Assembly (NCBI GenBank): GCA_019638595.1
Contig: JAHBTJ010000017.1
Span: forward strand, 62,001 to 126,000
Direction of reading: 5' to 3'
Source: Chitinophagaceae bacterium
Lineage (GTDB): Bacteria > Bacteroidota > Bacteroidia > Chitinophagales > Chitinophagaceae
DNA length: 64,000 bases
A program made the position numbers and the translations under genes. Positions 2,523 to 60,422 of this stretch are shown piece by piece (within the stretch, counting starts at the first letter, position 1; the number at the start of each line of letters is the position of its first letter). The notes under the pieces are model-generated. The model worked only from the letters and a program-made list of their open reading frames with translations. It searched no databases and was not told the origin of the DNA.

Positions 2523-2628
2523 CACGTTGCGGCCGGCAGCACCGGGAATGCCTGCCTGAAGCTTTCATTGATTATCATGGCTGTACAAAAGTTCGGAACA
2601 CGTTCACTCATTACACTTACCACAGCTA

Positions 2629-3405
2629 TTAATATGGCGACGGGCTTACCGATGTCCATCCGCCATCTATCACAAGGCTTTGCCCGGTAATATGCCGTGA
2701 AGCGGGAGATACAAAAAACAGTGCTGCATTGGCTATATCCTGTACGGTGGCGGGTTTGCCCATAGGAGTAATACGGCTCCAGGTATGTATGTATTCAGGG
2801 TCGTTCGTGGTACGTTCGGTAAGGGTAGCGCCCGGCGCGATGGCATTTACGGAAATATTATATTCCGATAATTCAACTACCAGGTTCTTGGCCAGCATTT
2901 CCAGCGCGGCTTTTGTCATACCGTATGCCGCTAAATTTTTATGCGCCTGGTGTCCTGTAACCGATGACATCAGCAAAATGCTGCCACCTGATCTTTGCGC
3001 GATGATCTGGCGCGCCGTTGCCTGCGCTAACAAAAAGCTGCCGCCCAGGTTCAGTTGCATTACTTTATATAACGACGCTGCCGGGTAAGTAAGAAAATCG
3101 CCAAACAAGGTAATGCCCGCATTGGCTATAGCAATGGTAAGCTTGCCAAAATGTTTTACAGCAGTACCGACCATATTATCTATGCACCCCGCTGCAGATA
3201 CATCTCCCGGCACGGAAACGCAAGCATACCCTTTGGCTGCAAGCGAAGCGGCTGCCGCTTCGGAAAGCTTTTCGTCCAGGTCGTTCAGTACCACAGCGGC
3301 TCCTTCGGTGCACAACTGGTTTGCAATTTCAAAGCCTATCCCCTGCCCTGCCCCTGTTACGACCGCTACCTCTCCTTTTAATTTCCCGCTGGATTGTTGT
3401 TCCAT
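2629..3405 (-). CDS. SDR family NAD(P)-dependent oxidoreductase
   Basis: This 258-residue classical short-chain dehydrogenase carries the cofactor loop TGAGQGIG near residue 17, NDLDE after beta-2 (Asp suggests NAD preference), NAG in IANAGITLFGD, the catalytic Ser in LMSSVTG, and the Tyr/Lys pair in AAYGMTKAA. The C-terminus ends with GGWTS typical of glucose 1-dehydrogenase, gluconate 5-dehydrogenase and related polyol or sugar dehydrogenases. It is 36 bases downstream of the large cytochrome c dehydrogenase gene and transcribed in the same direction, which points to a sugar or polyol substrate. The exact substrate is not visible from sequence. Confidence 0.88.
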   Translation of the reverse strand: MEQQSSGKLKGEVAVVTGAGQGIGFEIANQLCTEGAAVVLNDLDEKLSEAAAASLAAKGYACVSVPGDVSAAGCIDNMVGTAVKHFGKLTIAIANAGITLFGDFLTYPAASLYKVMQLNLGGSFLLAQATARQIIAQRSGGSILLMSSVTGHQAHKNLAAYGMTKAALEMLAKNLVVELSEYNISVNAIAPGATLTERTTNDPEYIHTWSRITPMGKPATVQDIANAALFFVSPASRHITGQSLVIDGGWTSVSPSPY

Positions 3406-6614: not shown

Positions 6615-7460
6615 CTAGCCCAGCGCAGATCTTAAAAATTTTACGCCCTTTTCTGCGATATCTTCCTGGGAAGGCTCAAAGTCGCGCCAGATAGAAGCCG
6701 CTTTTGCAATTACTTTCACTGCGGGAGTAAACGACTCTATTACAATGCTCTTGTTATACCCTACCTCTTTTAACGCGGCCGCTATTTTTGCCCAGTTGAT
6801 CTGGTCGCCGCCCGGCGTACCACGGTCGGAGCCGCATGCGTGAAAATGCCCCAGCTTTTTACCTGCAAGCAAAATAGCTTTAGCCGGGTCTTTTTCCTCT
6901 ATGTTCATATGATAAGAGTCAAGATGCACATAAATAGCATCATGATCTACATCTTTTACCATTTGTACCGCCTGCGCCGCGGTATTGATAAAATCCGTTT
7001 CATAGCGGTTCAATGGTTCTATTGCCAGCTTACGGCCTTTGGACGCCGCATATTCCGAAAGCGACTTCAGGTGCTTAACTACTGTTGCCCATTGTTTTTT
7101 GTATTCTTCTTTATCCACCGGCTCGGCCCTGCCAACCGATGAGTACAGGGGACCTATCAGCACAGGGCAATCAAGCACTACCATTGCATCAAGCACGCTT
7201 TTAATATAATTGATAGCGTTCTGTTGCTGTATTTCATCGCCACGCAGATCACGGTCGGGGCCCATAGCCGCGCAAATAGAGCCGCAAACCAATCCATTAT
7301 CATCGAGCGCTTTTTTCACTGCTTTGGCATCAATATGACCCGCATCTTCCAATGCTATTTCAACAGAGTCGAAACCCCATTGCTTAAACTTAGGAAATAA
7401 GGAAACGCTTTCGGTAGTAAACGGCGATGTAAACAAAAATGTATTAACTCCAAAATTCAT
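6615..7460 (-). CDS. Ketose 3-epimerase (D-tagatose/D-psicose 3-epimerase family), TIM barrel
   Basis: This 281-residue TIM-barrel protein contains AIEPLNRYETDF, HLDSYHMNIEE, GHFHACGSDRGTPGGD and IESF. The predicted metal/catalytic residues are E148, D181, H207 and E242. Their spacings (33, 26, 35) equal those of the known tetrad E152, D185, H211, E246 in D-tagatose 3-epimerase, so the active site looks complete. The reaction would be reversible epimerisation at C3 of a free ketose using Mn2+ or Mg2+ in the cytoplasm. It sits between the FG-GAP lipoprotein and the cytochrome c dehydrogenase genes on the same strand, suggesting a rare-sugar or polyol pathway. A related hydroxypyruvate isomerase-like role is less likely. 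Confidence 0.85.
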   Translation of the reverse strand: MNFGVNTFLFTSPFTTESVSLFPKFKQWGFDSVEIALEDAGHIDAKAVKKALDDNGLVCGSICAAMGPDRDLRGDEIQQQNAINYIKSVLDAMVVLDCPVLIGPLYSSVGRAEPVDKEEYKKQWATVVKHLKSLSEYAASKGRKLAIEPLNRYETDFINTAAQAVQMVKDVDHDAIYVHLDSYHMNIEEKDPAKAILLAGKKLGHFHACGSDRGTPGGDQINWAKIAAALKEVGYNKSIVIESFTPAVKVIAKAASIWRDFEPSQEDIAEKGVKFLRSALG

Positions 7461-24545: not shown

Positions 24546-25640
24546 TTATTTTATCAGCGTACCTTCCCTGATCTCATCCGAAGCATGAAGTATAATTTCA
24601 TCACCACCTTTTAGATCACCAAATACCTCGGTATAATCGTTAGAGGTCAGTCCAACCTTAATATCCCTGAACAGGGCTTTCCCTTCCGCCACCTGTATAA
24701 TGTATTGCCTTTCTGTTGAACGCACAATAGCGTGATTGGGCACCAGCAACGAAGCCGCGCTTGACAATAAAGGAATTTTAACTTCGGCATACATTCCTGC
24801 TTTCAGCGTTTGATCCTTATTATTAATATCAATTTCTATTGCTTCGGAACGAAGGCTGCTGAGCGCATTAGCGGAGCGGCTGATCATTGCCGTATTTTCC
24901 TTGCCGGGAATGGCATTGTATGTAAACCGCACCGGGCTTTTCAAATCAACCTTATCCACATAGGCTTCCGGAATAAATACTTCCAGCCTTAGTTTCTGTA
25001 AATGCTGTAATACCAGCAGGGGCAGATCATTCGCTTTACTGCCTGGTCCCACAAGCGTACCGGCGGAAATATTCCGCTGGATAATAACCCCGTCGAAAGG
25101 CGCTGTTACGGTAAGGTATTCCTTAATATTATTCATAGCCTCCACATTTGATCTTTCCGACATCACTACCGCTTCATCCGCTTTCATTTTCGACAAAGCA
25201 TTGTCCAGGTCAAGCGGAGCCACTGCTCCTGCCTCCTTGGATGCTTCATAAAGCCTCCTGTATTTGTCCTTGCTTGCTGCCGCGTTTTCCTGCGCGTGCG
25301 TAAATTTAGACATGGCTGCCTGCACCTGCGATTCAATTTCCGGGGCTTCCAGCGTAAGCAATACCTGGTTTTTCCTTACAATGCTGCCCCTGTCAACTTT
25401 TACAGATTCCACGAACCCGTTTACCCTGGCATAAATATTCACTTCTTCAAAAGGCTTTAACTGGCCGGGTAATTTTACATAACTCGATAAGGGCTGCTCC
25501 TTTACCAGCCCTATCTCGTATTTACTTTCCGAATGGGCGGCATCTTTTTTCCCCGTCATATCTACCGGCTGCTGACGATTGGAACACGCAACAAGAAACA
25601 GCATTATAAAAATCAGGGGCTGATAACATTTATAGTTCAT
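24546..25640 (-). CDS. RND efflux periplasmic adaptor (HlyD/MFP family lipoprotein)
   Basis: The 364-residue protein has a lipoprotein signal (IMLFLVACSNRQQ), a barrel-sandwich lipoyl part (VNIYARVNGFVESVKVDRGSIVRKNQVLL), an alpha-hairpin coiled coil near residues 110-170, the second lipoyl half (VTAPFDGVIIQRNISAGTLV) and beta-barrel and membrane-proximal domains. It bridges the inner-membrane pump and the outer-membrane channel. It is the last gene of the leftward unit, 11 bases after the RND gene. Confidence 0.9.
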   Translation of the reverse strand: MNYKCYQPLIFIMLFLVACSNRQQPVDMTGKKDAAHSESKYEIGLVKEQPLSSYVKLPGQLKPFEEVNIYARVNGFVESVKVDRGSIVRKNQVLLTLEAPEIESQVQAAMSKFTHAQENAAASKDKYRRLYEASKEAGAVAPLDLDNALSKMKADEAVVMSERSNVEAMNNIKEYLTVTAPFDGVIIQRNISAGTLVGPGSKANDLPLLVLQHLQKLRLEVFIPEAYVDKVDLKSPVRFTYNAIPGKENTAMISRSANALSSLRSEAIEIDINNKDQTLKAGMYAEVKIPLLSSAASLLVPNHAIVRSTERQYIIQVAEGKALFRDIKVGLTSNDYTEVFGDLKGGDEIILHASDEIREGTLIK

Positions 25641-25651
25641 GTTGATAGATT

Positions 25652-28600
25652 TTAGTTTGATTCATTTTTTGTTTCAGGCATCAGTGAGGGCGATTTGTAC
25701 CCGGCTTTTTGCTGAAGCCATGCAAAAGCCTGCGGCAGCACAAAAAGCGCGGCGATGGTAGAAGCGAAGAGCCCGCCAACTACAGCTCTTCCTAACGGAG
25801 CTGCCTGTTCGCCTGCCTCACCCATACCCAGCGACATGGGCATCATACCTGCTATCATAGCAAGGCTTGTCATAAGAATAGGGCGCATACGGATGGAGGC
25901 GCTCATGATCGCGGCTTTATCCGCGTTTTTATATTCCGGCCGCAGGTTTTCCGCGTTGGTCACTATAAGAATAGCATTGGCTACAGAAACGCCTGTAGAC
26001 ATGATCATGCCCATATACGACTGCAGGTTAAGCGTAGAGCCTGTAAGCAACAATGCCGCCAGTGATCCCGCTATTACCGCCGGCACTGTTGACAATACTG
26101 CCAGCGATAATTTAAATGACTGGTAATTGGCAGCCAGTAAAAGAAAGATAACAATAATAGCAAAGAGCAACCCGCTCTGCAAACTGCTGAATGTTTCTTT
26201 CAGCAAGGCCGACATGCCTTTAACTTCCGTTATCAATCCTTTAGGGGGCGCGTCCATAGAAGCCAGCAGCTTTTCCACTTCAGCAGTAGCAGCGCCCAGA
26301 TCCTTTTGATGGATATTAGCGCTCACCGTTAAAAAGCGCCTCGGGCCGGAACGGTCATACTCACCCGGAACATACGCGGTTTTGAAGCTGGCAATATCAC
26401 CCAGCACGGGACTGCTTTGTCCTTTAACCAGCGGTATCTCCCTTAATTCATCCATTGTATTCATCACGTATTCCGGTATCTGCACCTGTATCTGGTACGT
26501 GTAGGCCTTCTCCTCATCCAGCCATTGATTTTTTTCTGTAAACCGGCTGGAAGAAGTGCTGGCGGTTACAGACCGGGCAATATCCTGGATATTCAAGCCC
26601 AGTTGAGCCGCTTTCAACCTGTCGAGCGAAATAGTAACCACCGGGAATTTTAAAGGCTGCGCTATCTGCACATCCCGCAAAAAAGACACCTGCTTTAATT
26701 TCTCTACTACTGCATTGGCGTATTGCTCTATTTCCGCCATACTCTTTCCTGCCACCCGTACCTCAATAGGCGTAGCGGCGCCCTGGCTCATTATTTTTTC
26801 AGTCATATCTATAGGCTCAAAACTCAGGCGCAGGTGCGGCATGGCATACAAAATATTGCGCCGTAACGCGTCTTTCAGCTCATCTATATTCACTTTAAAA
26901 TGTTTATCCAGCGAAACCTGCATAATAGCTTCATGGGTGCCTGTATTAAAAATGTAAAGATTACTGGTACCATAGCTGCTGGGTATTAATCCCACGTAAG
27001 CCGAACTGATAGCTACATGATGATTAACGGTCGTATCAATAATTTGCAATACTCTTCTTACGGTTTCTTCCGTGCGTTCAAGCCTGGTGCCGTCGCGTTC
27101 TTTGATCCTTAGCTGAAATTGCCCGTTGTTCAATTTGGGCATCATGTCCTTTCCAATCAGCATAAACCCGGCGGCAACCATAGCTATTACTACCACCATA
27201 TACCCTGCTACCATCGGCTTTTTGAACCGCATGTATTTTTGGATCAGCTTGATATAACGAAGCTTTACACGTTCAAAAAGATCATTCTTCTCGGGAGTGT
27301 TGTGTTCGCTTGTAAGATGATCGGTTACCTGCTTCCGTTCTGCCGTGTCCAGTGCCATTCCCGCATGCGCATGTATACGACCGTGATGATACTGCTGGTA
27401 CTTTTCTGCTTTTATCATCCAGTTCGATAATATGGGAACAAGTGTTTGTGCAATTACATACGAAATGATCATCGTAAAGCCAATGGAAAGCGACAATGGC
27501 AAAAACATCGCTTTAGGCACACCGTTCATCATGAGCGAAGGAGCAAAAACCGCCAGTATACAAAGCAGGATGAGCAGCAACGGAAAAGCGATTTCCTGGC
27601 AGGCATCAAGGATCGCCTGCTTTTTATCTTTCCCCATCTCAAGATGCTGATGAATATTTTCAATGGTAACGGTTGCCTGGTCTACCAATATGCCTATAGC
27701 CAAAGCAAGACCGCTCAGGGTCATAATATTGATCGTTTGCCCGTTTAAGGAAAGTAGCAATACACCTATCATAATTGAAACAGGAATAGTGATGACAACG
27801 ATCAGGCTGCTGCGTAAGTCTCTCAGGAACAATAATACCATCAACCCTGTAAGCAAGGCTCCCAGGGCTCCCTCGGTAACAAGGCTTTCCACCGCGTTTA
27901 CAACAAATACCGATTGATCAAATTCGTAGGAAATATTAATATCATCGGGAAGCAGGGATTTAATGTCAGGTATCTTAGCCTTTAGCCCCTGCACTACCTG
28001 CCAGGTAGAAGCATCGGCCGTTTTAACCACAGGTATATACACCGATCGTTTACCATTGATCAGCGCATAGTCAACCGTTATATCCGTGGCATCGGCTACC
28101 CTGGCTATATCTTTTACAAGCACCGGAACGCCGCTCTTTGTTACAACAGGAATATCGCCAAACTCCTCGATTTGCTGTACCAGTGTATTGATAGTGGTAA
28201 GATACATGGTATTATCAAGTCGTATATTTCCCGAGGGAGCCATTACATTAAACTTTGCAAGAGCGGCCACTACTTCATCGGCCGTAAGATTATAGCTGCG
28301 GAGCTTGTTCGGATCAACATTTACAGTGATAGCCCTTGAGTTGGCGCCAAACGGCGGTGGCGCTGATAGGCCCGGAACCGACGCGAACATAGGCCGTACA
28401 CGGGTGGATGCGAGATCATAAATTTCTTTGAGCGTTCGTTTTTCGCCCGACAACACCAACTGCCCCACCGGCAACGATGAAGCATCAAAACGCACCACCT
28501 GCGGAGGCAATGCGCCCGGCGGAAAAAATTTCATAGCCCTGTTAACCTGCAACGCCACCTGCGCGCTGGCTTCGGCCATATTGGTATTTTCGTAAAAATT

Positions 28601-28879
28601 TATTTTCAGCATGGTAAGCCCCTGTATGTTTTTGGCTGTAATGCTCTTTACACCGTTCACATACAGGAACTGGTCCTGCAGGCGTGTAGAAAAAAAGCCT
28701 TCCATCTGCTGCGCCGACATCCCGCCATACGATTCAATAACGTAAATAGTAGGTAAGTTCAGCCTGGGGAAAATATCAATGGGCATTTTTACCACTGCAA
28801 TTATCGAAAACAAAACGAGGCTCAATACAATCACCAGGGTGCTGACAGGCTTTTTAAGCGCTGTTGTAACTAAAGACAT
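25652..28879 (-). CDS. RND efflux transporter permease (AcrB/CusA superfamily)
   Basis: A 1,075-residue RND transporter with the usual two halves of six helices: N-terminal TM1 (LVIVLSLVLFSIIAVVKMPIDIFPRLNLP), porter segments, and the TM4 proton-relay region GLALAIGILVDQATVTIENI. Between the two halves, near residues 490-520, is an unusual His-rich cytoplasmic insertion (YHHGRIHAHAG, then DHLTSEH). The family exports drugs, solvents or metals by proton antiport. The sequence is closer to hydrophobic/drug RND pumps than to CusA, but the His-rich loop leaves metal sensing possible. It is seven bases downstream of the TolC gene. Confidence 0.9.
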   Translation of the reverse strand: MSLVTTALKKPVSTLVIVLSLVLFSIIAVVKMPIDIFPRLNLPTIYVIESYGGMSAQQMEGFFSTRLQDQFLYVNGVKSITAKNIQGLTMLKINFYENTNMAEASAQVALQVNRAMKFFPPGALPPQVVRFDASSLPVGQLVLSGEKRTLKEIYDLASTRVRPMFASVPGLSAPPPFGANSRAITVNVDPNKLRSYNLTADEVVAALAKFNVMAPSGNIRLDNTMYLTTINTLVQQIEEFGDIPVVTKSGVPVLVKDIARVADATDITVDYALINGKRSVYIPVVKTADASTWQVVQGLKAKIPDIKSLLPDDINISYEFDQSVFVVNAVESLVTEGALGALLTGLMVLLFLRDLRSSLIVVITIPVSIMIGVLLLSLNGQTINIMTLSGLALAIGILVDQATVTIENIHQHLEMGKDKKQAILDACQEIAFPLLLILLCILAVFAPSLMMNGVPKAMFLPLSLSIGFTMIISYVIAQTLVPILSNWMIKAEKYQQYHHGRIHAHAGMALDTAERKQVTDHLTSEHNTPEKNDLFERVKLRYIKLIQKYMRFKKPMVAGYMVVVIAMVAAGFMLIGKDMMPKLNNGQFQLRIKERDGTRLERTEETVRRVLQIIDTTVNHHVAISSAYVGLIPSSYGTSNLYIFNTGTHEAIMQVSLDKHFKVNIDELKDALRRNILYAMPHLRLSFEPIDMTEKIMSQGAATPIEVRVAGKSMAEIEQYANAVVEKLKQVSFLRDVQIAQPLKFPVVTISLDRLKAAQLGLNIQDIARSVTASTSSSRFTEKNQWLDEEKAYTYQIQVQIPEYVMNTMDELREIPLVKGQSSPVLGDIASFKTAYVPGEYDRSGPRRFLTVSANIHQKDLGAATAEVEKLLASMDAPPKGLITEVKGMSALLKETFSSLQSGLLFAIIVIFLLLAANYQSFKLSLAVLSTVPAVIAGSLAALLLTGSTLNLQSYMGMIMSTGVSVANAILIVTNAENLRPEYKNADKAAIMSASIRMRPILMTSLAMIAGMMPMSLGMGEAGEQAAPLGRAVVGGLFASTIAALFVLPQAFAWLQQKAGYKSPSLMPETKNESN

Positions 28880-28886
28880 AAGGGCA

Positions 28887-30275
28887 TTAATTTAGGGTTT
28901 GTAATAAAAGCGGCAATTGGTTTTCGACCATCGCTTTTTGAAAAAGCGCTTTACAAAACATATACCGCGCAAGGGTATAATCCGTTTCCGCACGATAGAG
29001 TATACTGAGGGCCGTATTGAGCTCCACTATATTTGTTAACCCGTTCCTGTAAAGCGAAAGCTTTTGCCTGTAAGCGGCATTGGCAGCTTCAAGCTGCCGG
29101 GGTATTTCAAGCAGCCTGCTGTAAGCCGTGGTAAGCTCTACCTGCGCCTGCTGCAGGGCAACCGCCATTTCAGCTTCCTGTTCGCCCAGTTTCTTCAGGG
29201 CATACTCCGTTCCGGCCTGCTGCGTTTTTAACTGCAGCTTTTTCCGCTTGTTATCGAAAATATTATAGGTAACTCCCACCCCAAGCAAATAATTGCCGCG
29301 TTCAAAGCCCATGCCTTTTGATAAGGCGCGAAATTCATCGCTGGCGCTTACACTGGATCCCCTGCCCCATATGGCTGCCTGCAGGGCAACTTTAGGCATA
29401 TACATTTTTTGTACCCATGCTTCCTTATCCAGGCTGTTTTGATGAAGCGCCTTGTAGTATAGCAACAATGGGTGCGATGCAGTATCAGGATCCATCATCA
29501 AAAACGACGCATACCGGCTGATCAGTCTGTCTTCCAGCAAAGTATCAGGCACTATCTTTTCGGTATTTATTCCGCTGATATAGGAAAGCCGCAGCTGGTT
29601 CTTTTTCATTTGGTTCGATAATTCAAGCTCTATTAGTCTTGCCCGCGACAATTCAGCTTCCGCAATGCTGGTATCCACCCCCGCCTTTATACCGGCAACG
29701 GCCAATGCATGTATAATCCGTTTTATTTCCTGGTTACGGATAATGTTCCGGGATTGTATCTGCATCATATCGCCCAGTTGTATTAATTGCAGGTAATGAT
29801 CAATAGCAGCTACCTGCATGCTGTACCTGGAACGCTCAAACCCCGACTGCTCCACCTTAAGATCGGATTCCGCTACCTGCTGCCGGGCTTCATACGCGCC
29901 AAAATTGTATATCTCCCAGTCAAAAGACGCAATGCCTATATTAGTTAAAATTGTAGATGCGTTTCCCTCCTGTCTTACACGCGAGTTGGAAGGCACAATG
30001 CCATACGAAAAATAGCCGCCGGGTAAATTATTGTTGGTGCCTACATCAATTTGATAATTCAGCCTGAGAGAAGGCCACCAATTGTACCTGCTGGCCTCAA
30101 ACTGCGCCTTCTTTATACCAATAGCAGCAGAATCCGCCATTAAAGAAGGAGCATTTAACTGCACACGCTCCAGCATCTGTGTAAGCGTTATTACCGGGGA
30201 TGATTGCTGCCCATACGCTAATATGCCTGACACAAATAAAGGCAGCGCCAAAATAAAACTTCTGGTATTCAACAT
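28887..30275 (-). CDS. TolC family outer membrane efflux protein
   Basis: A 462-residue protein with a signal peptide ending in GILAYGQQ and two homologous outer membrane efflux repeats with long helical segments (for example EAEMAVALQQAQVELTTAYSR and LYRNGLTNIVELNTALSILYRAETDY). It forms the outer-membrane channel of the tripartite pump and is the first of the three pump genes. The ATG at 30275 is followed immediately by a good signal peptide. Confidence 0.9.
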   Translation of the reverse strand: MLNTRSFILALPLFVSGILAYGQQSSPVITLTQMLERVQLNAPSLMADSAAIGIKKAQFEASRYNWWPSLRLNYQIDVGTNNNLPGGYFSYGIVPSNSRVRQEGNASTILTNIGIASFDWEIYNFGAYEARQQVAESDLKVEQSGFERSRYSMQVAAIDHYLQLIQLGDMMQIQSRNIIRNQEIKRIIHALAVAGIKAGVDTSIAEAELSRARLIELELSNQMKKNQLRLSYISGINTEKIVPDTLLEDRLISRYASFLMMDPDTASHPLLLYYKALHQNSLDKEAWVQKMYMPKVALQAAIWGRGSSVSASDEFRALSKGMGFERGNYLLGVGVTYNIFDNKRKKLQLKTQQAGTEYALKKLGEQEAEMAVALQQAQVELTTAYSRLLEIPRQLEAANAAYRQKLSLYRNGLTNIVELNTALSILYRAETDYTLARYMFCKALFQKAMVENQLPLLLQTLN

Positions 30276-30415
30276 GAATCGCGATTAAGAGTTTAAATTG
30301 AAACAAAGCCGGTTACACCCGGCCTCAAACCGGTATATTCCGGTTAGCTTTTTACGAATAATGTATGCTACTGCTTCAGGAGAAATGATTCCGCCAAAAA
30401 ACGGAGATGATGTAA

Positions 30416-30790
30416 TTAAAGCACAGGAGGTCCGCGCAAAACAGCCAGCGGATGATCGCAGGAGGAAACAAAATGAGCATTATAGCTATATAGCTTTTTT
30501 TTAACGGGAGGAACCACAGAAAGCAATGACGAGGGCTCCGGTATATGCAAAATAAATTTCGGTACCTGGAATCGCTTATTGATCCTTATTCCGGCTTCAT
30601 CGTCATCAGTAAATTTATTATCACCGTCTTTATCTACAATTAAGATGGGAGATTTGGAAAACTGCTTTACACTAAACACCAGTACCGTATTCTGCCTGCC
30701 GGGTAAATCAGGATTTACCGAAAGCAACTGGGCAGCAAAAAATATCAAATATAAAACAGCATGCATGATGGTTGAAAATGCCTTTCTCAT
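30416..30790 (-). CDS. Small secreted protein of unknown function upstream of the RND operon
   Basis: About 124 residues from the ATG at 30790 (another in-frame ATG at 30808). There is a hydrophobic N-terminal segment (IMHAVLYLIFFAAQLL) that looks like a signal peptide or membrane anchor, a short acidic segment VDKDGDNKFTDDDE that resembles a calcium-binding loop, and a C-terminal tail SSCDHPLAVLRGPPVL. I do not recognise a named family, though small secreted proteins ending in a Pro-Pro tail are met upstream of efflux genes in Bacteroidota. It lies 140 bases before the TolC gene on the same strand and may be part of the operon. Confidence 0.55.
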   Translation of the reverse strand: MRKAFSTIMHAVLYLIFFAAQLLSVNPDLPGRQNTVLVFSVKQFSKSPILIVDKDGDNKFTDDDEAGIRINKRFQVPKFILHIPEPSSLLSVVPPVKKKLYSYNAHFVSSCDHPLAVLRGPPVL

Positions 30791-30929
30791 GGTATATCCT
30801 TTATGCATCCGAACGAAGTTAATAAAAAGTAAGTTAGTTAACCGCTAACAACCCTGCTCTGTTGTATGTTCAGCCCTGTGTGTTTGTTATACATATGTTA
30901 AATGAACACCCGCATAACAGGCAATCTGC

Positions 30930-30943
30930 GTGATAAATATCAC
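30930..30943. promoter_or_regulatory. Crp/Fnr-type operator 1 (before the regulator gene)
   Basis: GTGATAAATATCAC, a GTGA-N6-TCAC palindrome. Its centre is 28.5 bases upstream of the TAAATTGC promoter-like element at 30965, matching class II activator spacing near -41.5. The regulator gene starts at 30991, so autoregulation is likely. Confidence 0.65.
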
Positions 30944-30990
30944 AGCCTTCATAAATATTACAATTAAATTGCAGCCACTAAATGCGTTTC

Positions 30991-31638
30991 ATGGAAAATA
31001 GCATACAACAATTACCTGTTCTTTTTCCGGGTTTTCAACTCGATCTTATTGAAGAGCTTTCAGATACAGGCGAGATCCGTTCGTTCAGATCGGGGGATAT
31101 TATTATGAGAACAGGACAAAACATACGCTTTACCATGCTGGTGGTAAGCGGGCTCATTAAAGTGTACAGGGAAGATGATGAAGGAAATGAATACTTCATA
31201 TATCACCTGCATCCCGGCGAAGCCTGCGCGGTTTCCATGATATGCGCTACCAGGCAGGAAACCAGTCATGTAATGGCAAAAGCGGTTGCCGATACGGAAG
31301 TAATTACCATTCCTTTGGCGCGCATGGATGAATGGATGACAAAATATAAAACCTGGTATTATTTTGTACTGGAAACTTACAGAGGCCGCTTTGAAGAGCT
31401 GTTGTATACCATTGATCATATCGCCTTCCGCAATATGGATGAACGGCTGTTGTTCTACCTGCGCAAACATCAAAAAAGCTTACACACAAACCGCATTGAT
31501 ATTCCGTTTACCGAAATAGCACAGGAGCTGAATTCCTCGCGGGAAGTTATTTCAAGATTAATGAAAAAGCTTTCTGATCGCGGATTGGTAAAGCTTCACC
31601 GTTCATACGTAGAAATTACAGACCTCTCCCTGCAATAG
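30991..31638 (+). CDS. Crp/Fnr family transcriptional regulator of the sulfur genes
   Basis: 215 residues from the ATG at 30991 (an ATG nine bases upstream is possible). An N-terminal cyclic-nucleotide-like beta-roll (residues 20-115) is followed by a dimerisation helix and a winged helix-turn-helix. The recognition helix reads SSREVISRLMKKL, with R184, E185 and R189 in the positions of the three DNA-contacting residues of E. coli Crp (R180, E181, R185); this predicts recognition of GTGA half-sites. Four such palindromes occur in this locus. Cysteines C79 and C85 in ACAVSMIC could sense persulfide, which is inference. No Fe-S ligand cluster of Fnr type is present. It precedes the exporter and the persulfide dioxygenase. 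Confidence 0.88.
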   Translation: MENSIQQLPVLFPGFQLDLIEELSDTGEIRSFRSGDIIMRTGQNIRFTMLVVSGLIKVYREDDEGNEYFIYHLHPGEACAVSMICATRQETSHVMAKAVADTEVITIPLARMDEWMTKYKTWYYFVLETYRGRFEELLYTIDHIAFRNMDERLLFYLRKHQKSLHTNRIDIPFTEIAQELNSSREVISRLMKKLSDRGLVKLHRSYVEITDLSLQ

Positions 31639-31665
31639 GCAGCCCGGGAATTATCAATGCTGCTG

Positions 31666-31679
31666 GTGATAATAGTCAC
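31666..31679. promoter_or_regulatory. Crp/Fnr-type operator 2 (before the TauE/SafE gene)
   Basis: GTGATAATAGTCAC lies with its centre 29.5 bases upstream of AAAATTTG at 31702-31709, a TAnnTTTG-like element close to the start of the exporter gene. Confidence 0.6.
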
Positions 31680-31710
31680 GAAATAATATACGCAGTCCCG
31701 CAAAATTTGC

Positions 31711-32526
31711 ATGAAAGATCTGTTCATGGAAATTGCAGGATATATAGCAGCGGCATTCATTGGTATTTTACTCGGCATGATGGGTGGCGGAGGATCCATA
31801 CTAACCGTTCCCATGCTGGTATACCTGTTCAGGATGCAACCTTTATATGCTACGTCCTATTCTCTTTTTATAGTGGGCTTTACAAGCCTTACAGGAGCTT
31901 TCGGTAATTACCTGAAAGGTTTAGTGCATATACGTACAGCCATTTTATTTGGTATTTCATCCTTTGTAACCGTATTTGCCGTACGAAAGTGGATAGTACC
32001 TGCCATACCCGATATTATTATATCCACTCCGTATGTGGAGTTAACAAGCTCCGCGCTCACCATGATCTTATTTGCAGTGCTGATGGTGATTGCCGCTATA
32101 AGCATGCTGCAAAACAAAGAAGGAAAAAACAGCCGCTACATTACTAATGCCAGCTTACCCGTTGTTAAACTGCTACTTTACGGAGCGGGCATCGGGATAG
32201 TAACGGGGCTGCTGGGTGCGGGAGGTGGGTTCCTGCTGATACCGGTGTTGGTAGTATTATTACAACTGCCTATGAAAGAAGCTATAGGCACATCGCTCCT
32301 CATCATTTCTATTAATTCGCTTATTGGATTTGCAGGCGATTTAGGGCACTACCACATGGACTGGAAAAAATTATTGCTTATTACCAGCATAGCGGTTGCA
32401 GGAATATTTGCAGGTGTGGCCTTATCTCAAAAGATCCCGGCACAAAAGCTCAAAAAAGCATTTGGATGGTTCGTATTGCTGATGGGTATTATCATCCTGG
32501 CTAAAGAAATCGTAAATAAGTCATGA
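31711..32526 (+). CDS. TauE/SafE family sulfite/anion exporter
   Basis: A 271-residue membrane protein with about eight helices and the two family motif repeats, GILLGMMGGGGSILTVPMLVYL near residue 18 and GIGIVTGLLGAGGGFLLIPVLV near 155 (each quoted only in part by position). It exports sulfite, thiosulfate or other organosulfonate-derived anions. It stands between the Crp/Fnr regulator and the persulfide dioxygenase-rhodanese gene, so export of sulfite formed by persulfide oxidation is the best guess. The start at 31711 could also be the ATG at 31726, which would fit the promoter position better. Confidence 0.85.
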   Translation: MKDLFMEIAGYIAAAFIGILLGMMGGGGSILTVPMLVYLFRMQPLYATSYSLFIVGFTSLTGAFGNYLKGLVHIRTAILFGISSFVTVFAVRKWIVPAIPDIIISTPYVELTSSALTMILFAVLMVIAAISMLQNKEGKNSRYITNASLPVVKLLLYGAGIGIVTGLLGAGGGFLLIPVLVVLLQLPMKEAIGTSLLIISINSLIGFAGDLGHYHMDWKKLLLITSIAVAGIFAGVALSQKIPAQKLKKAFGWFVLLMGIIILAKEIVNKS

Positions 32527-32528
32527 AT

Positions 32529-32542
32529 GTGATGAGAGTCAC
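32529..32542. promoter_or_regulatory. Crp/Fnr-type operator 3 (before the persulfide dioxygenase gene)
   Basis: GTGATGAGAGTCAC begins three bases after the exporter stop codon and 50 bases before the next start. The promoter-like element CAATTTTA at 32565 lies 29.5 bases from its centre but matches the consensus poorly. Confidence 0.6.
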
Positions 32543-32591
32543 GTTTACAACAAAAATGTTTAACCAATTTTACAACAATTAAAAACGAGTT

Positions 32592-34010
32592 ATGAAAATA
32601 GAGCAAATTTATACCGGGTGTCTTGCACAGGGTGCATACTATATCCAAAGTGGAAAAGATGCCGTTGTAATAGATCCTTTGCGCGAAGTAGAGCCTTATA
32701 TCCGCAAGGCGGAACTCAACAACGCGAAAATCAAATACGTTCTTGAAACACATTTCCACGCCGACTTTGTTTCGGGACATCTTGATCTGGCTAAAAAAAC
32801 CGGCGCCACAATAGTATACGGGCCGGGAGCTGAGCCTGCATTTGAAGCCTATATAGCTAAAGATGGAGAGGAATTAAAAGTGGGTGATGTTACTATACAG
32901 GTAATTCATACCCCCGGGCATACCATGGAAAGCACCTGCTATTTACTGAAAGATACAAAGGGCAGGCCCATAGGGCTGTTCAGCGGCGATACGTTGTTCA
33001 TTGGAGACGTGGGCAGGCCCGACCTGGCCCAAAAAGTAAAAGCAGAGCTTACACAGGATAAGCTTGCCGCCCACCTGTACGATTCCCTGCGTAATAAAAT
33101 AATGACCCTGCCCGACGATGTAATAGTATACCCCGCGCACGGAGCGGGAAGCGCCTGCGGTAAAAACATGAGCAGGGAAACTACCGACACGCTGGGGCGC
33201 CAAAAGCAAACCAATTACGCGTTGCGTGCAGATATGACGAAAGAAGAATTCATCAGCGAAGTAACCAAAGGACTTACCACACCTCCTTCCTATTTTCCGC
33301 TGAATGTGATGATGAATATACAAGGTTATGAAAGCATTGATAAAGTGCTGGAACGCGGACAGCACGCGTTGAGCGCCGAAGCGTTTGAAGCTGCCGCCAA
33401 CGAAACAGGAGCTCTTATACTGGATACCCGCGATACGGAGACTTTTGCAAAGGGTTTTATTCCCAATTCTATCAATATAGGTATTGACGGCAACTTCGCT
33501 CCCTGGGTGGGAGCCATGATCCCGGACATTCAACAGGAAATTTTACTGGTAACAGAAAAAGGCAGGGAAGAAGAAGTAATTACACGGCTCGCCAGGGTGG
33601 GCTATGATCACACCATCGGGTACCTGAAAGATGGTTTTGAAGCATGGAAGAAAGCCGGTAAGGAAACAGACGAAATACAGTCCGTTACGGCCGGGGAGCT
33701 GGCAAACCTTCTGCCATTGCAGGATGTTAATATGCTGGACGTTCGCAAAAAAAGCGAGTACGAAAGCGAGCACCTGCTGGGATCGGAAAATATGCCGCTC
33801 GACAATATCAACGATAATATGCCTTCGCTCGATAAAAACAAAACCTACTATGTTCATTGTGCGGGAGGATACCGCTCTATGATCTTCAATTCCATTCTGA
33901 GAGCCCGGGGCTATCATAATCTTATAGATGTAAAAGGCGGTTTTAAAGCCATTAAAGAGAACGGGAGCTTTGAGATAAGCGATTATGTGTGCCCCACCAC
34001 TTTATTGTAG
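32592..34010 (+). CDS. CstB-like persulfide dioxygenase-rhodanese fusion (MBL fold, pseudo-rhodanese, rhodanese)
   Basis: The 472 residues comprise an N-terminal metallo-beta-lactamase-fold persulfide dioxygenase with the 2-His-1-Asp iron site of ETHE1: H54 in ETHFHADF, H110 in HTPGHT and D133 in SGDTLF. A first rhodanese domain (about 265-360) lacks the catalytic Cys (the loop reads VTEKGREEE), and a second (about 375-465) has an intact active loop HCAGGYRS with C423. This order matches staphylococcal CstB, in which the dioxygenase oxidises a low-molecular persulfide to sulfite and the rhodanese forms thiosulfate. It should act in the cytoplasm in sulfide and persulfide detoxification, together with the adjacent exporter. 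Confidence 0.87.
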   Translation: MKIEQIYTGCLAQGAYYIQSGKDAVVIDPLREVEPYIRKAELNNAKIKYVLETHFHADFVSGHLDLAKKTGATIVYGPGAEPAFEAYIAKDGEELKVGDVTIQVIHTPGHTMESTCYLLKDTKGRPIGLFSGDTLFIGDVGRPDLAQKVKAELTQDKLAAHLYDSLRNKIMTLPDDVIVYPAHGAGSACGKNMSRETTDTLGRQKQTNYALRADMTKEEFISEVTKGLTTPPSYFPLNVMMNIQGYESIDKVLERGQHALSAEAFEAAANETGALILDTRDTETFAKGFIPNSINIGIDGNFAPWVGAMIPDIQQEILLVTEKGREEEVITRLARVGYDHTIGYLKDGFEAWKKAGKETDEIQSVTAGELANLLPLQDVNMLDVRKKSEYESEHLLGSENMPLDNINDNMPSLDKNKTYYVHCAGGYRSMIFNSILRARGYHNLIDVKGGFKAIKENGSFEISDYVCPTTLL

Positions 34011-34088
34011 CCTGAAGAAAAAGAGGTGGCGGAAGCCGCTATCCGCTCCTCTTCAAAACCAATACGGAAACTTCTAAAATCAACAAAC

Positions 34089-34328
34089 ATGTCAAAGCAT
34101 CCTGATGATACAGCCTCTGAAAAAAGGGTAATCTGGTTCAGCCGTATCCTGCGGTGGACACTGGGAGTATTTTTTATTGGCGCCGGCATTATGTATTATA
34201 CTGAAGGAGCGTGGCCGGCTATTATGCTCGGGGTTGTATTTATTGTAACGGGCTTTTTCAGGCCAACACATTGTTTAGGCGGAAGCTGTGCTGTGCCGCC
34301 ACGACAGCCTTCTCAAACCGCCGAATAA
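34089..34328 (+). CDS. YgaP-like (DUF2892) membrane protein
   Basis: 79 residues from the ATG at 34089 (an upstream GTG at 34026 is in frame but gives a poorer N-terminus). Two hydrophobic helices (WTLGVFFIGAGIMYY and PAIMLGVVFIVTGFF) are followed by RPTHCLGGSCAV, a Cys-rich tail like that of the YgaP transmembrane domain. In E. coli this domain is fused to a rhodanese; here it directly follows the rhodanese-containing gene, about 78 bases away. A role in handling or exporting sulfur species is plausible but unproven. Confidence 0.7.
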   Translation: MSKHPDDTASEKRVIWFSRILRWTLGVFFIGAGIMYYTEGAWPAIMLGVVFIVTGFFRPTHCLGGSCAVPPRQPSQTAE

Positions 34329-34374
34329 TACGCTTGCAAAAAGCAATAACAGGTAATTCATAAAAGGTAGCAAC

Positions 34375-34388
34375 GTGACAAAGATCAC
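34375..34388. promoter_or_regulatory. Crp/Fnr-type operator 4 (before the second DUF2892 gene)
   Basis: GTGACAAAGATCAC has its centre 29.5 bases upstream of TATATTTA at 34411-34418, a seven-of-eight match to TAnnTTTG. The downstream gene starts at 34437. Confidence 0.65.
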
Positions 34389-34436
34389 AGCCTGGCAGGA
34401 AAATGGCTGTTATATTTAAGGATAAACTATTTCATC

Positions 34437-34643
34437 ATGAAAAAAAATGTAGGCTCCGCAGACCGGGCAATCCGGCTCACTTTAGCAGTGGTTTTTACTT
34501 TATTGTATGTAACAAAGGTTGTTACCGGCACTCCCGGCATTGTTCTGCTGGTAGCCGGCATCATCCTGGCACTTACTTCATTGATCAATTTCTGCCCGGT
34601 TTACGCTTTATTGGGCATCCGTACCTGTACCGTAAAAAAATAA
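34437..34643 (+). CDS. YgaP-like (DUF2892) membrane protein, second copy
   Basis: 68 residues with the pattern typical of the DUF2892 family: NVGSADRAIRLTLAVVFTLL, a second helix IVLLVAGIILALTSLINF and the motif CPVYALLGIRTC with two conserved cysteines. It has its own predicted Crp/Fnr-controlled promoter and closes the sulfur locus. Function is unknown; linkage to rhodanese genes is common. Confidence 0.75.
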   Translation: MKKNVGSADRAIRLTLAVVFTLLYVTKVVTGTPGIVLLVAGIILALTSLINFCPVYALLGIRTCTVKK

Positions 34644-34816
34644 AAACCACGATTTTATAGCCAGGCTACCCGGTATTTTTGCCTTTTTTTGACCCACCTG
34701 GCATTTTTCCCTTCTGTTCATCGAAGGTTTAAGGCTGATCATCGAAATCAGCTTTTACAGATTGAGTTGCATTTTATTTTTACAGTCGCTTAGTTACCCT
34801 AAAACCAATACCTATT

Positions 34817-35761
34817 ATGCAACTTAAAAGAATTATAGTTGTAATTGTAGCATGTCTCTCCAGCGCTTTCTTCTGCATATATACTATTCCCATACACAGA
34901 AGTTACCTGGCCGAAATAGAGATCAACGCAGACGACCTCATTACCTACCGCACATTACTGGACACAACCAACTGGAACAGGTGGTATAAACATAATGATC
35001 AAACATTCCAGGCTATACCGCATACTATTTCTATCATTCCTGATAAGCAAAAAAAGAAGTTCGCATACGTATTGCATGAAAATGAAAATGAAATACGCGA
35101 GGGCGGCATACAGATCATTAAAAGTAACAGGTGGAACAGCAAAATCAAATGGACCGAAAAGCTGGTATTTGAAAAAGACATTCAGCAGAAATTAAAATTG
35201 CTTTTTCATCCTGAAGAGTTCAGGTCGGTTTTTTTACAGAATGTTATTCAGTTTAAAAGCCATATTGAACATCCCGACAATATATTTGGCGGTATTGCTT
35301 TTGAACGTCGCAATATTCCCGCAAAAAAGCTGGTCATTCTTTCCGATACTGCAAGTGCAAGCGATATTGAAGCCAAAGCCAACGAGCTGCACCAGTTTAT
35401 TATTAATTCTGTCCCGGAAAAATATTTAGTACAAAAAGATATTTATATCAGCCAGCACGAAATATTCAACGATACCCTTGCATACATAAGAGTGGGTGTA
35501 AGTGTTTCCGAAGACCTGTTCACAGTAAAAGCGCCGCTGGATATTCGTGATACCGAAGATCATTCCGCTATTGTAATGTATATTGAAAAAGGGTATACGG
35601 AGATCAACGAAGACATTTCCATTATGTACGAATGGCTGAAAAAGAATGATGCCAGGCCATCTACCGGTTTCTGGATAGAACATACCCCCTCTACCGCCAT
35701 TGCCCAAAACGATGTAAAGCATCCGCTTACCATCATCCAGGAATTTTATTCGATAAAATAG
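34817..35761 (+). CDS. Membrane-anchored protein with SRPBCC-like and effector-binding-like regions
   Basis: 314 residues. A short N-terminal hydrophobic helix (IIVVIVACLSSAFFCIYTI) is followed by a region with NWNRWYKHNDQTF that resembles the start of polyketide cyclase/SRPBCC proteins, and a C-terminal half (from about 210, IYISQHEIFNDTLAYIRVGV and VMYIEKGYTEINEDISIMYEWL) that resembles the AraC effector-binding (GyrI-like) fold. There is no DNA-binding domain. Proteins of this arrangement occur in Bacteroidota with unknown ligand. It stands alone, not in an evident operon. Confidence 0.65.
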   Translation: MQLKRIIVVIVACLSSAFFCIYTIPIHRSYLAEIEINADDLITYRTLLDTTNWNRWYKHNDQTFQAIPHTISIIPDKQKKKFAYVLHENENEIREGGIQIIKSNRWNSKIKWTEKLVFEKDIQQKLKLLFHPEEFRSVFLQNVIQFKSHIEHPDNIFGGIAFERRNIPAKKLVILSDTASASDIEAKANELHQFIINSVPEKYLVQKDIYISQHEIFNDTLAYIRVGVSVSEDLFTVKAPLDIRDTEDHSAIVMYIEKGYTEINEDISIMYEWLKKNDARPSTGFWIEHTPSTAIAQNDVKHPLTIIQEFYSIK

Positions 35762-35857
35762 CATGAAAAGTAAAGCCCGGAAGACATTTGGGAAATTATT
35801 CACTCCATATCTCCCCTCACCCAGGCGGACGCACAAACAGGTATGAATTGCGCAGAA

Positions 35858-35968
35858 AGGGTAGCACCTACGAGGCATAATAACAGCTTATTTTTTTGCA
35901 GCACAAGGACAATCCGTTTGTAAACCACTGGCAGGCTCAATTCCCTGCTATACCGTAGGTGCAGCCCT
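35858..35968. repeat. Imperfect inverted repeat in a 397-base intergenic gap (REP-like or miniature element)
   Basis: AGGGTAGCACCTACG at 35858-35872 is mirrored by CGTAGGTGCAGCCCT at 35954-35968 (13 of 15 positions pair), enclosing 81 bases. The surrounding gap (35762-36158) has no convincing gene; a reverse frame across it lacks any recognisable domain. The arms resemble dispersed palindromic words in Bacteroidota, but this window has one copy only, so mobility is inference. Confidence 0.45.
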
Positions 35969-36145
35969 CTTTTACCCCCTGAGCATGGAAAATTTCTGAC
36001 GGCCCCTGCGAAAATTGGAACTTTCCTCATCACAGGTAAATACCGCCTTTTGTAATTGTTGTATAACCACATTAACAAGACCTGTACGCCAAAATAGGAT
36101 GCGTTTGCCCTGTTACCCTGGCCATCTTTCTTACTCAACTAACAG

Positions 36146-36153
36146 TATCTTTG
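36146..36153 (+). promoter_or_regulatory. Candidate -7 element of trmB (near-leaderless)
   Basis: TATCTTTG matches TAnnTTTG and ends five bases before the ATG at 36159. If used, the transcript would start at or next to the start codon. A TTG at the -33 position is not evident. Confidence 0.35.
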
Positions 36154-36158
36154 CCCGC

Positions 36159-36863
36159 ATGGGTCATAAGAAACTAATTCGTTTTGAAGCGATCAAAAGC
36201 TTCAGGAATGTGCTGCAGTATCCTGAAGGAATGCCTGGCAAATGGAATCATTTCTTTAAAAATGAAAATGATATTACCCTTGAGCTTGCTTGTGGAAAAG
36301 GAGAATATACCGCAGGACTTGCCCGGAAATATCCCGGCAGGAATTTTATTGGAGTAGATCTTAAAGGCAACCGCATTTGGGCGGGCGCTAAAAAATGCCT
36401 GGACGAAAAGCTGGAAAACGCAGCCTTTCTCCGCACACAAATAGAAAGGATCACTGATTATTTTGCCCCGGGAGAGGTGAAAGAAATCTGGATCACATTT
36501 CCCGATCCGCAATTAAGACTGTCAAGGGCAAAAAAAAGACTTACACACCCCCGGTTTCTGCGGCTTTATCAAAAAATAGCAGCTCCCGGCGGAGCTGTTC
36601 ATCTCAAAACAGATTCTCCCGACCTGTACCGGTTTACCAAAACGGTAGCCCAACTTTACCAACTACCGGTACTGGAGGATATAGAGGATATTTATAACGA
36701 AGCTGTCATCAGCGAAGAACTGCAGATCAAAACATATTACGAAAGCCTGGACATAGCTCAAAGCAACAGGGTACATTATCTTAAGCTTACATTAAATGGT
36801 GAAATTTCGCCTGAAAAAGACGAGCAATTAAAACAGTTGCTGCAGGAACCGGCTGTTGATTGA
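36159..36863 (+). CDS. trmB: tRNA (guanine-N7-)-methyltransferase
   Basis: 234 residues. The SAM-binding region LELACGKGEYTAGLA near residue 45, GVDLKGNRIWAG, and the family motif ITFPDPQLRLSRAKKRLTHP (about residues 118-137) identify TrmB, which makes m7G46 in the variable loop of tRNA. The Bacteroidota version has FPDPQ in place of FPDPW. The open frame extends upstream to 36015, but the ATG at 36159 matches the family start and a promoter-like element ends just before it. Confidence 0.9.
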   Translation: MGHKKLIRFEAIKSFRNVLQYPEGMPGKWNHFFKNENDITLELACGKGEYTAGLARKYPGRNFIGVDLKGNRIWAGAKKCLDEKLENAAFLRTQIERITDYFAPGEVKEIWITFPDPQLRLSRAKKRLTHPRFLRLYQKIAAPGGAVHLKTDSPDLYRFTKTVAQLYQLPVLEDIEDIYNEAVISEELQIKTYYESLDIAQSNRVHYLKLTLNGEISPEKDEQLKQLLQEPAVD

Positions 36864-60376: not shown

Positions 60377-60422
60377 AAGTGAAAGGAATCACCACCTGTT
60401 TTGTTTTTCCTTTCACTTTTCA
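60377..60422 (+). terminator. Intrinsic terminator after the heme transport operon
   Basis: AAGTGAAAGGAA at 60377-60388 pairs with TTCCTTTCACTT at 60407-60418 (12 bp, 18-base loop) and is followed by TTCACCTTTT. It lies between hmuS and the nitroreductase gene. Confidence 0.65.

Follow-up and report, generated by a model that had tools for sequence, protein, structure and literature searches.

A 64,000-nucleotide stretch of a Chitinophagaceae genome (assembly GCA_019638595.1, contig JAHBTJ010000017.1; C9:62001-126000 within 7.06 Mb, hereafter the window) holds a gene for a Crp/Fnr-type regulator together with genes for a TauE/SafE exporter, a metallo-beta-lactamase (MBL) plus double-rhodanese protein and two small YgaP-like membrane proteins. 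Comparison with related loci indicates that the regulator is probably a class II activator of sulfide detoxification, of the Crp/Fnr type, belonging to a Bacteroidota subfamily that would sense persulfide or polysulfide through cysteines. An initial annotation of the window had described a small, local and self-contained sulfur-stress circuit; that reading holds for the kind of system, underestimates its extent, and can be extended by a candidate sensor.

Operators and their spacing in the window and in related loci

All four exact GTGA-N6-TCAC palindromes reported by the initial annotation were found, at 30930, 31666, 32529 and 34375 (Table 1). The geometry it described was recovered as well: from the operator centre to the first base of a TAnnTTTG-like box there are 28.5 bp at the regulator gene and 29.5 bp at the other three genes (TauE, dioxygenase, YgaP-like). 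TAnnTTTG is the Bacteroidota -7 consensus, and the window's own four boxes deviate from this ideal; we take them as real because of the 103 aligned sites and the spacer peak described below. A fifth exact GTGA-N6-TCAC lies at 60379-60392, with ANNTTT at spacer 22. We read it as a hairpin or chance match and not as an operator, since its base 5 is not a pyrimidine and it sits inside the GTGAAAGG/CCTTTCAC inverted repeat.

For comparison, 78 loci were retrieved by the regulator protein from named records. They contain 129 GTGA-N6-TCAC sites (133 with four own-genome loci retrieved by the motif), and the half-site spacer of 6 stands alone, with 133 sites versus 5-9 at each spacer of 2-5 or 7-11; the reversed pattern gives 8. 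Of the sites, 103 (the window's four included) are located no more than 300 bp ahead of the start of a regulator, TauE, dioxygenase or YgaP-like gene. Aligned on the palindrome they give GTGAY-N4-RTCAC, followed by A at position +30.5, TTT from +33.5 to +35.5 and either G or A at +36.5, which matches the register of a TAnnTTTG element starting 29.5 bp from the centre. We also defined a relaxed composite, GTNAY-N4-RTNAC-N23-ANNTTT, where N23 runs from the operator end to the A of the -7-like box. It occurs 123 times at spacer 23, versus 0-9 at every other spacer from 15 to 31, and 64 of the 78 loci have one.

The initial annotation had proposed searching for the motif upstream of orthologues, where its absence would have told against the circuit; the search did not bear out such an absence. 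An exact site precedes TauE in 39/40 loci, with ANNTTTG at spacer 23 in 35/40 aligned sites, and precedes the dioxygenase (at least 55% identity) in 38/46, with ANNTTT at spacer 23 in 41/45 aligned sites and ANNTTTG in 18. The regulator itself has an exact site upstream in only 13/66 loci, and its aligned sites tend to be spaced one base shorter (ANNTTT at 22 bp in 6/15, at 23 in 1, at neither in the rest). Autoregulation, as read from operator 1, thus fits this genome but is a minority trait among relatives. In two Flavobacterium loci (L044, L047) the regulator accompanies two tandem dioxygenase-like genes, the first with CTGAC-N4-GTCAG instead of GTGAC and the second with GTAACTATTATCAC.

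Most of the more distant loci that appeared to lack the motif carry GTAAC/GTTAC-type palindromes with the spacing unchanged. A draw of 296 genomes from the window's phylum, not tied to the search peptides, gave 110 regulator homologues at E <= 1e-30 in 96 genomes. The first 40 of the 108 drawn loci were hand-picked, several for a nearby composite site, and the other 68 were not. Counted up to 1.5 kb from the regulator in all 108 loci, the relaxed composite is found 52 times at spacer 23 (46 loci) versus 0-12 at other spacers from 17 to 30; for the 68 loci that were not hand-picked the figures are 27 (24 loci) versus 0-6.

A putative sulfur regulon extending outside the window

The strict composite, GTGAY-N4-RTCAC-N23-ANNTTT, occurs five times in the genome, three times in the window and twice on contig 12, with none on the reverse strand and none in the control. 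Behind one contig 12 site come genes for a rhodanese and for two YeeE-like (Sulf_transp) proteins, with further genes. The other precedes the gene of a protein that has mitochondrial sulfide:quinone oxidoreductases (SQR) as its best solved relatives (E 3e-103). All five therefore precede sulfur genes or the cluster's YgaP-like gene. The description of the circuit as small, local and self-contained is accordingly not supported, as strict composites also precede the rhodanese/YeeE operon and the SQR gene elsewhere in the genome. Its sulfur-stress theme is supported, the core targets in this genome and in relatives belonging to the sulfide/persulfide pathway.

Across the 296 genomes there are 122 strict composites versus 27 reversed controls, with 73 in the 96 genomes that have a homologue (control 13) and 49 in the 200 that have none (control 14). 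By eye, many of these 49 are near-identical, coding-sequence-like repeats within two genera. Sulfur genes were counted as neighbours within 1.5 kb (tblastn E <= 1e-3, leaving out one out-of-frame query, 'smTM'). Such a neighbour accompanies 70/108 drawn regulator loci, or 51/108 for TauE, dioxygenase, YeeE and SQR alone, and the share depends on homologue identity, from 19/20 at >=45% down to 14/32 below 34%. The control, the 15 other cNMP-domain loci of this one genome, gave 0/15.

We also read 20 site-bearing regions, picked from genomes with several sites and holding 24 sites in all. By our reading, 11/24 go directly to a sulfur gene; others precede thioredoxin-like, SulP, outer-membrane efflux and flavoprotein genes or a small membrane protein without a Pfam match. 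Single relatives or a few of them add OsmC, thioredoxin-like, peroxiredoxin, oxidoreductase-rhodanese, outer-membrane efflux and SulP genes, some of these named by eye.

Three of these groups recur with an operator. Outer-membrane efflux genes have one at L014:3770, L018:3140, L024:8640 and L177:5662 (the last assigned by Pfam, the others by eye), and are a possible route of sulfur efflux. SulP genes have an operator-like site at L107:3374, L185:1955 (by eye) and L194:2473. The first of these is C1:380873 of the window's own genome, GTGATAAAATTCAC, which lies between SulP and a second Crp/Fnr gene and lacks a purine at base 10. OsmC-family genes have one at L046:7220 (by eye) and L162:2851 (Pfam), a hint that OsmC-like proteins may take part in the response to persulfide stress.

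Cysteines in the former nucleotide pocket

The initial annotation passed over the feature of the sequence that says most about the signal, namely Cys82 and Cys88 in place of the nucleotide pocket. In a gap-free register we take them to correspond to Crp I70 and F76, in the nucleotide-pocket stretch. Cys82 is present in 187 of 188 aligned homologues, the lone exception (L259) being a truncated reading counted as without both cysteines. Cys88 is limited to a clade: among drawn homologues it is found in 20/20 at >=45% identity, 20/23 at 38-45%, 18/34 at 34-38% and 3/32 below, and both cysteines occur in 40/43 at >=38%, the window's clade. The higher count in the 78 loci (75/78) is biased towards Cys88, as the search peptides included one containing it. 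Cys89 occurs in 36/120 homologues and no further cysteine in more than 8/120. None of the 15 own-genome paralogues has both cysteines, although one fragment has a cysteine at 88.

The cAMP-contact residues of CRP are E72 and R82. In the 109 drawn homologues the E72 equivalent is M, I, L, V or S and never Glu, and the R82 equivalent is Arg in 8/109. Together with the sulfur targets, this is most simply read as a thiol switch that responds to persulfide or polysulfide, centred on Cys82 and using a pair only in the window's clade. Cys-X5-Cys was considered as a hallmark of the family and rejected, since Cys88 stood in 36/41 homologues from hand-picked loci and in 61/109 once the remaining 68 were added.

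In a large group of homologues (L229-L273 and others, mostly <38% identity) Cys82 is the sole or nearly the sole cysteine, within a CIMSFLGG-like pocket and often with a TARVVVSR helix; this is possibly a sister regulator with a different signal. The solved Crp/Fnr-family protein PDB 3dv8 (chain A) has Cys-X5-Cys in the same pocket stretch, so the motif may reach beyond the homologues examined here.

The alternative that survives best concerns the signal. The regulator could respond to NO, peroxide, an electrophile, a metal or general thiol redox, with the sulfur genes as indirect targets or as one arm of the response. Thiols respond to a wide range of reactants, many homologues have Cys82 without a partner, and some targets (thioredoxin-like, peroxiredoxin, OsmC) are general redox genes. 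The core of the regulon, however, consists of SQR, dioxygenase, rhodaneses, YeeE and TauE, both in this genome and in relatives, and we consider such a signal unlikely.

Activation or repression

The class II-like geometry proposed by the initial annotation fits the operator-to-box spacing, fixed at 23 bp in relatives. A spacing fixed to one base, with an operator centre that we infer to lie near -41.5, favours class II activation. The initial annotation had also noted missing -33 elements. This stands, as weak evidence. TTG is found in 3/103 sites versus 10-15/103 in four control windows, TTTG in 2 versus 1-7, which is no difference, and the right half-site covers part of the -33 position by construction.

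The same arrangement might serve a repressor, with the operator blocking polymerase until persulfide relieves the block, as with SqrR or CstR. The operator does overlap the polymerase-binding position, and persulfide sensors are typically repressors according to the accessible parts of two sources (PMC9774590, PMC6195638). Repression has no need of a spacing held to 1 bp (123 composites versus at most 9), the scarcity of TTG at -33 points away from it even though TTTG resembles the controls, and Crp-like recognition in a class II-like position speaks against it too. A repressor therefore seems quite unlikely to us, and activation remains the preferred reading.

Recognition helix and operator specificity

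The Crp-like recognition helix claimed by the initial annotation is there, with R187, E188 and R192 all present, at what we take to be the positions of Crp R180, E181 and R185. Among 109 drawn homologues R187 and R192 are kept in 108, while residue 188 is Val in 58, Glu in 49 and Ala in 2. Of 115 homologues that have a site, 84 with Glu188 show mostly G at half-site base 3 and 6 do not; of those with Val188, 24 show other bases and 1 shows G. An earlier raw count of this covariation, on another set of rows, looked overwhelming (Fisher 2e-21). This association is what the Crp E181 contact predicts, and such tracking between residue 188 and the operator supports, but does not prove, that this regulator reads the sites. 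The locus L163 has two regulator copies, one with V188 (2588-3121) and one with E188 (6730-7305), each beside its own kind of operator: GTNAC operators lie near the V188 copy, and GTGAC...GTCAC directly follows the E188 copy. The two make up a natural specificity pair.

The sites might instead be bound by another Crp/Fnr protein of the cell, the neighbouring regulator being incidental. The genome has 15 other cNMP-domain matches. One of these paralogues (L198, C1:380474) likewise has R-E-...-R in its recognition helix, and its gene adjoins the exact GTGATAAAATTCAC, with ANNTTT at spacer 23. Against this, strict composites adjoin regulator homologues throughout the phylum, nine lying within 1 kb of one (eight outside the own genome) versus about 0.03 expected, and none of the 15 paralogue loci has a sulfur neighbour or relaxed composite within 1.5 kb. 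Additionally, operator base 3 follows regulator residue 188, though not significantly on a tree, and L163 holds both regulator/operator types side by side. We judge a different binding protein to be very improbable. Finally, the bare motif is no commoner genome-wide than its reversed control (38 versus 36 sites in 7.06 Mb), yet chance palindromes without a regulatory role are rejected, with next to no probability left to them, by local clustering (Poisson P of at least 4 in 3.46 kb ~5e-9 per stretch at this genome's site density) and by conserved position and spacing in relatives.

Proposed mechanism

In the mechanism that we propose, a regulator dimer would bind GTGAY-N4-RTCAC, or GTNAC-N4-GTNAC in distant members, with the operator centre ~41.5 bp before the presumed start site, where a -33 element would otherwise stand. 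The bound regulator would recruit RNA polymerase to the -7-like element by class II activation. The former cyclic-nucleotide pocket, which has lost its ligand residues and has gained the invariant Cys82, plus Cys88 in the window's clade, would be the sensor. The cysteines would most likely react with persulfide or polysulfide, forming a di- or polysulfide bridge where both are present, while Cys82 alone would undergo persulfidation or form a mixed disulfide; either modification would switch DNA binding or activation. Among the targets, SQR would oxidise sulfide, the CstB-like dioxygenase and the rhodaneses would oxidise or transfer sulfane sulfur, and TauE, YeeE and the YgaP-like proteins probably carry products across membranes.

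We give about even chances to the fuller form of this model, in which a widespread Bacteroidota Crp/Fnr subfamily has turned its nucleotide pocket into a covalent sulfur sensor on Cys82 (with Cys88 in the window's clade), acts as a direct persulfide-responsive activator, and shifts its specificity between GTGAC and GTAAC with Glu or Val at 188.

Several observations weigh against the model. No relaxed composite lies within 1.5 kb at 62/108 drawn loci, and 38/108 are without a sulfur-gene neighbour at that distance. For six of the 24 sites in the picked regions nothing sulfur-related could be named downstream (a formate-tetrahydrofolate ligase, an MFS-like and a TetR-like gene are among these, and there are also sites leading to an unknown or to no gene). 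TTTG is not depleted at -33 relative to control windows. When the tree is computed with the helix left out, the residue-188 covariation comes down to 7 changes and 3 supported independent pairs, none opposite (p 0.25, not significant), and a tree test on a smaller row set agrees; six E188 loci (L071, L072, L074, L078-L080) have mostly A sites, and the V188 locus L175 uses G. Cys88 is not general (61/109 drawn homologues, 3/32 below 34% identity) and Cys82 is the sole cysteine in many homologues below 34% identity, so a Cys-Cys bridge cannot be the mechanism of the whole family.

Genes and features of the locus

The regulator has an N-terminal cNMP-binding-like domain and a C-terminal Crp-type helix-turn-helix, and both Pfam matches that place it in the Crp/Fnr superfamily exceed their cut-offs (PF00027 46.4 bits, PF13545 39 bits). 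It reaches no NCBIfam equivalog cut-off. Its closest counterpart in the named-record collection is 92% identical and comes from a Chitinophagaceae metagenome-assembled genome. The exporter more likely starts at ATG 31726 than at 31711, because relatives conserve ATGGAAAT there and 31711 abuts the -7 box. The dioxygenase-rhodanese protein, with best solved relatives 3tp9 and 3r2u, has an MBL followed by two rhodanese domains, the order expected of a putative CstB-like dioxygenase-sulfurtransferase. The first YgaP-like gene (ATG 34089) lacks a separate operator and is probably transcribed by read-through from the dioxygenase gene.

Table 1. Features of the sulfur locus, in coordinates of the window
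Feature	Position	Strand	Remarks
Operator 1, GTGATAAATATCAC, palindromic, 5' of regulator gene	30930..30943	+	exact GTGA-N6-TCAC; centre 28.5 bp before -7-like box
-7-like box, TAAATTGC, regulator promoter	30965..30972	+	weak
Crp/Fnr-type regulator, 218 aa	30982..31638	+	PF00027 and HTH_Crp_2 above cut-off; alternative in-frame ATG 30991 possible
Codon of Cys82	31225..31227	+	187/188 aligned homologues
Codon of Cys88	31243..31245	+	137/188; clade-limited
Recognition-helix residues R187-E188-V-I-S-R192	31540..31557	+	
Operator 2, GTGATAATAGTCAC, 5' of TauE/SafE gene	31666..31679	+	exact GTGA-N6-TCAC
-7-like box, AAAATTTG, TauE promoter	31702..31709	+	
TauE/SafE-family exporter	31711..32526	+	PF01925 E 8e-41; likely true start ATG 31726
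Operator 3, GTGATGAGAGTCAC, 5' of dioxygenase-rhodanese gene	32529..32542	+	exact GTGA-N6-TCAC
-7-like box, CAATTTTA, dioxygenase promoter	32565..32572	+	
CstB-like persulfide dioxygenase (putative), MBL domain and two rhodanese stretches	32592..34010	+	PF00753, two PF00581 stretches
First YgaP-like small membrane protein	34089..34328	+	weak YgaP-like_TM match, 23.9 bits, below 25.3 cut-off
Operator 4, GTGACAAAGATCAC, 5' of second YgaP-like gene	34375..34388	+	exact GTGA-N6-TCAC
-7-like box, TATATTTA, second YgaP-like promoter	34411..34418	+	
Second YgaP-like membrane protein, 68 aa	34437..34643	+	PF11127 E 2e-21

A TolC-like/RND/membrane-fusion set, named by eye, adjoins the regulon on the minus strand (24546-30275) and showed no exact operator site. 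Neither the open reading frame at 34817-35761 nor that at 30416-30808 has a Pfam or NCBIfam match; a counterpart of the former, 81% identical, adjoins the regulon in L005. No Rfam match that would indicate an RNA switch was found within 30000-36500.

Significance and comparison with known systems

If the model is correct, a major phylum gains a regulator of sulfur stress and a classic fold gains a new sensor site. The model would also describe promoters at which class II activation of the Crp type operates together with Bacteroidota -7 elements. Its predictions are clear: a single essential cysteine, a single operator, a single spacing, and a specificity switch that occurs naturally.

E. coli CRP combines a GTGA half-site with an R-E-...-R recognition helix and class II geometry. 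The regulator shares with it the fold family, the half-site and helix, and a class II-like geometry, but differs from it in lacking the E72/R82 residues and in having a pocket cysteine and a sulfur regulon; in the NCBIfam CRP equivalog it scores 48.7 bits versus a cut-off of 266. Fnr-type [4Fe-4S] oxygen sensors, which have four conserved cysteine ligands, are of the same superfamily and have the same recognition-helix position, whereas the regulator has no set of four cluster ligands, Cys82 alone being widely conserved and Cys88 or Cys89 in parts. Its nearest solved relative is the Crp/Fnr-family protein PDB 3dv8 (E 6e-19), with which it has Cys-X5-Cys at the aligned place in common.

Among the papers listed in searches of the open-licence literature, judged by title and the beginning of the abstract, there was no Crp/Fnr persulfide regulator, a weak negative as the slash in 'Crp/Fnr' could not be matched. 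The accessible part of a review of persulfide sensors covers regulators of the CsoR, ArsR and Fis types as well as OxyR, LasR and OhrR; in that review the sole mentions of Crp are in two references about cytochrome oxidases, and 'Bacteroid' does not occur (PMC9774590). Persulfidation of a Crp-like protein from Acinetobacter has been reported, with unknown effect (PMC7315123).

Among the known sensors, CstR and SqrR sense with a cysteine pair, according to the part of the review available (PMC9774590). Like CstR and SqrR/BigR, the regulator has conserved candidate sensing cysteines (a pair in the window's clade) and stands beside sulfide-oxidation, persulfide dioxygenase and YeeE/YedE genes that it would control. 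Unlike these repressors of the CsoR and ArsR families, as portrayed in the accessible parts of the sources, it has a different fold and is presumably an activator (PMC9774590, PMC7315123); no CsoR or ArsR Pfam match was obtained for it at E 0.001. With FisR it would share cysteine-based activation of sulfur genes, whereas FisR, as the same portions describe it, is a sigma-54 activator with three cysteines and not a Crp/Fnr protein (PMC9774590, PMC7315123).

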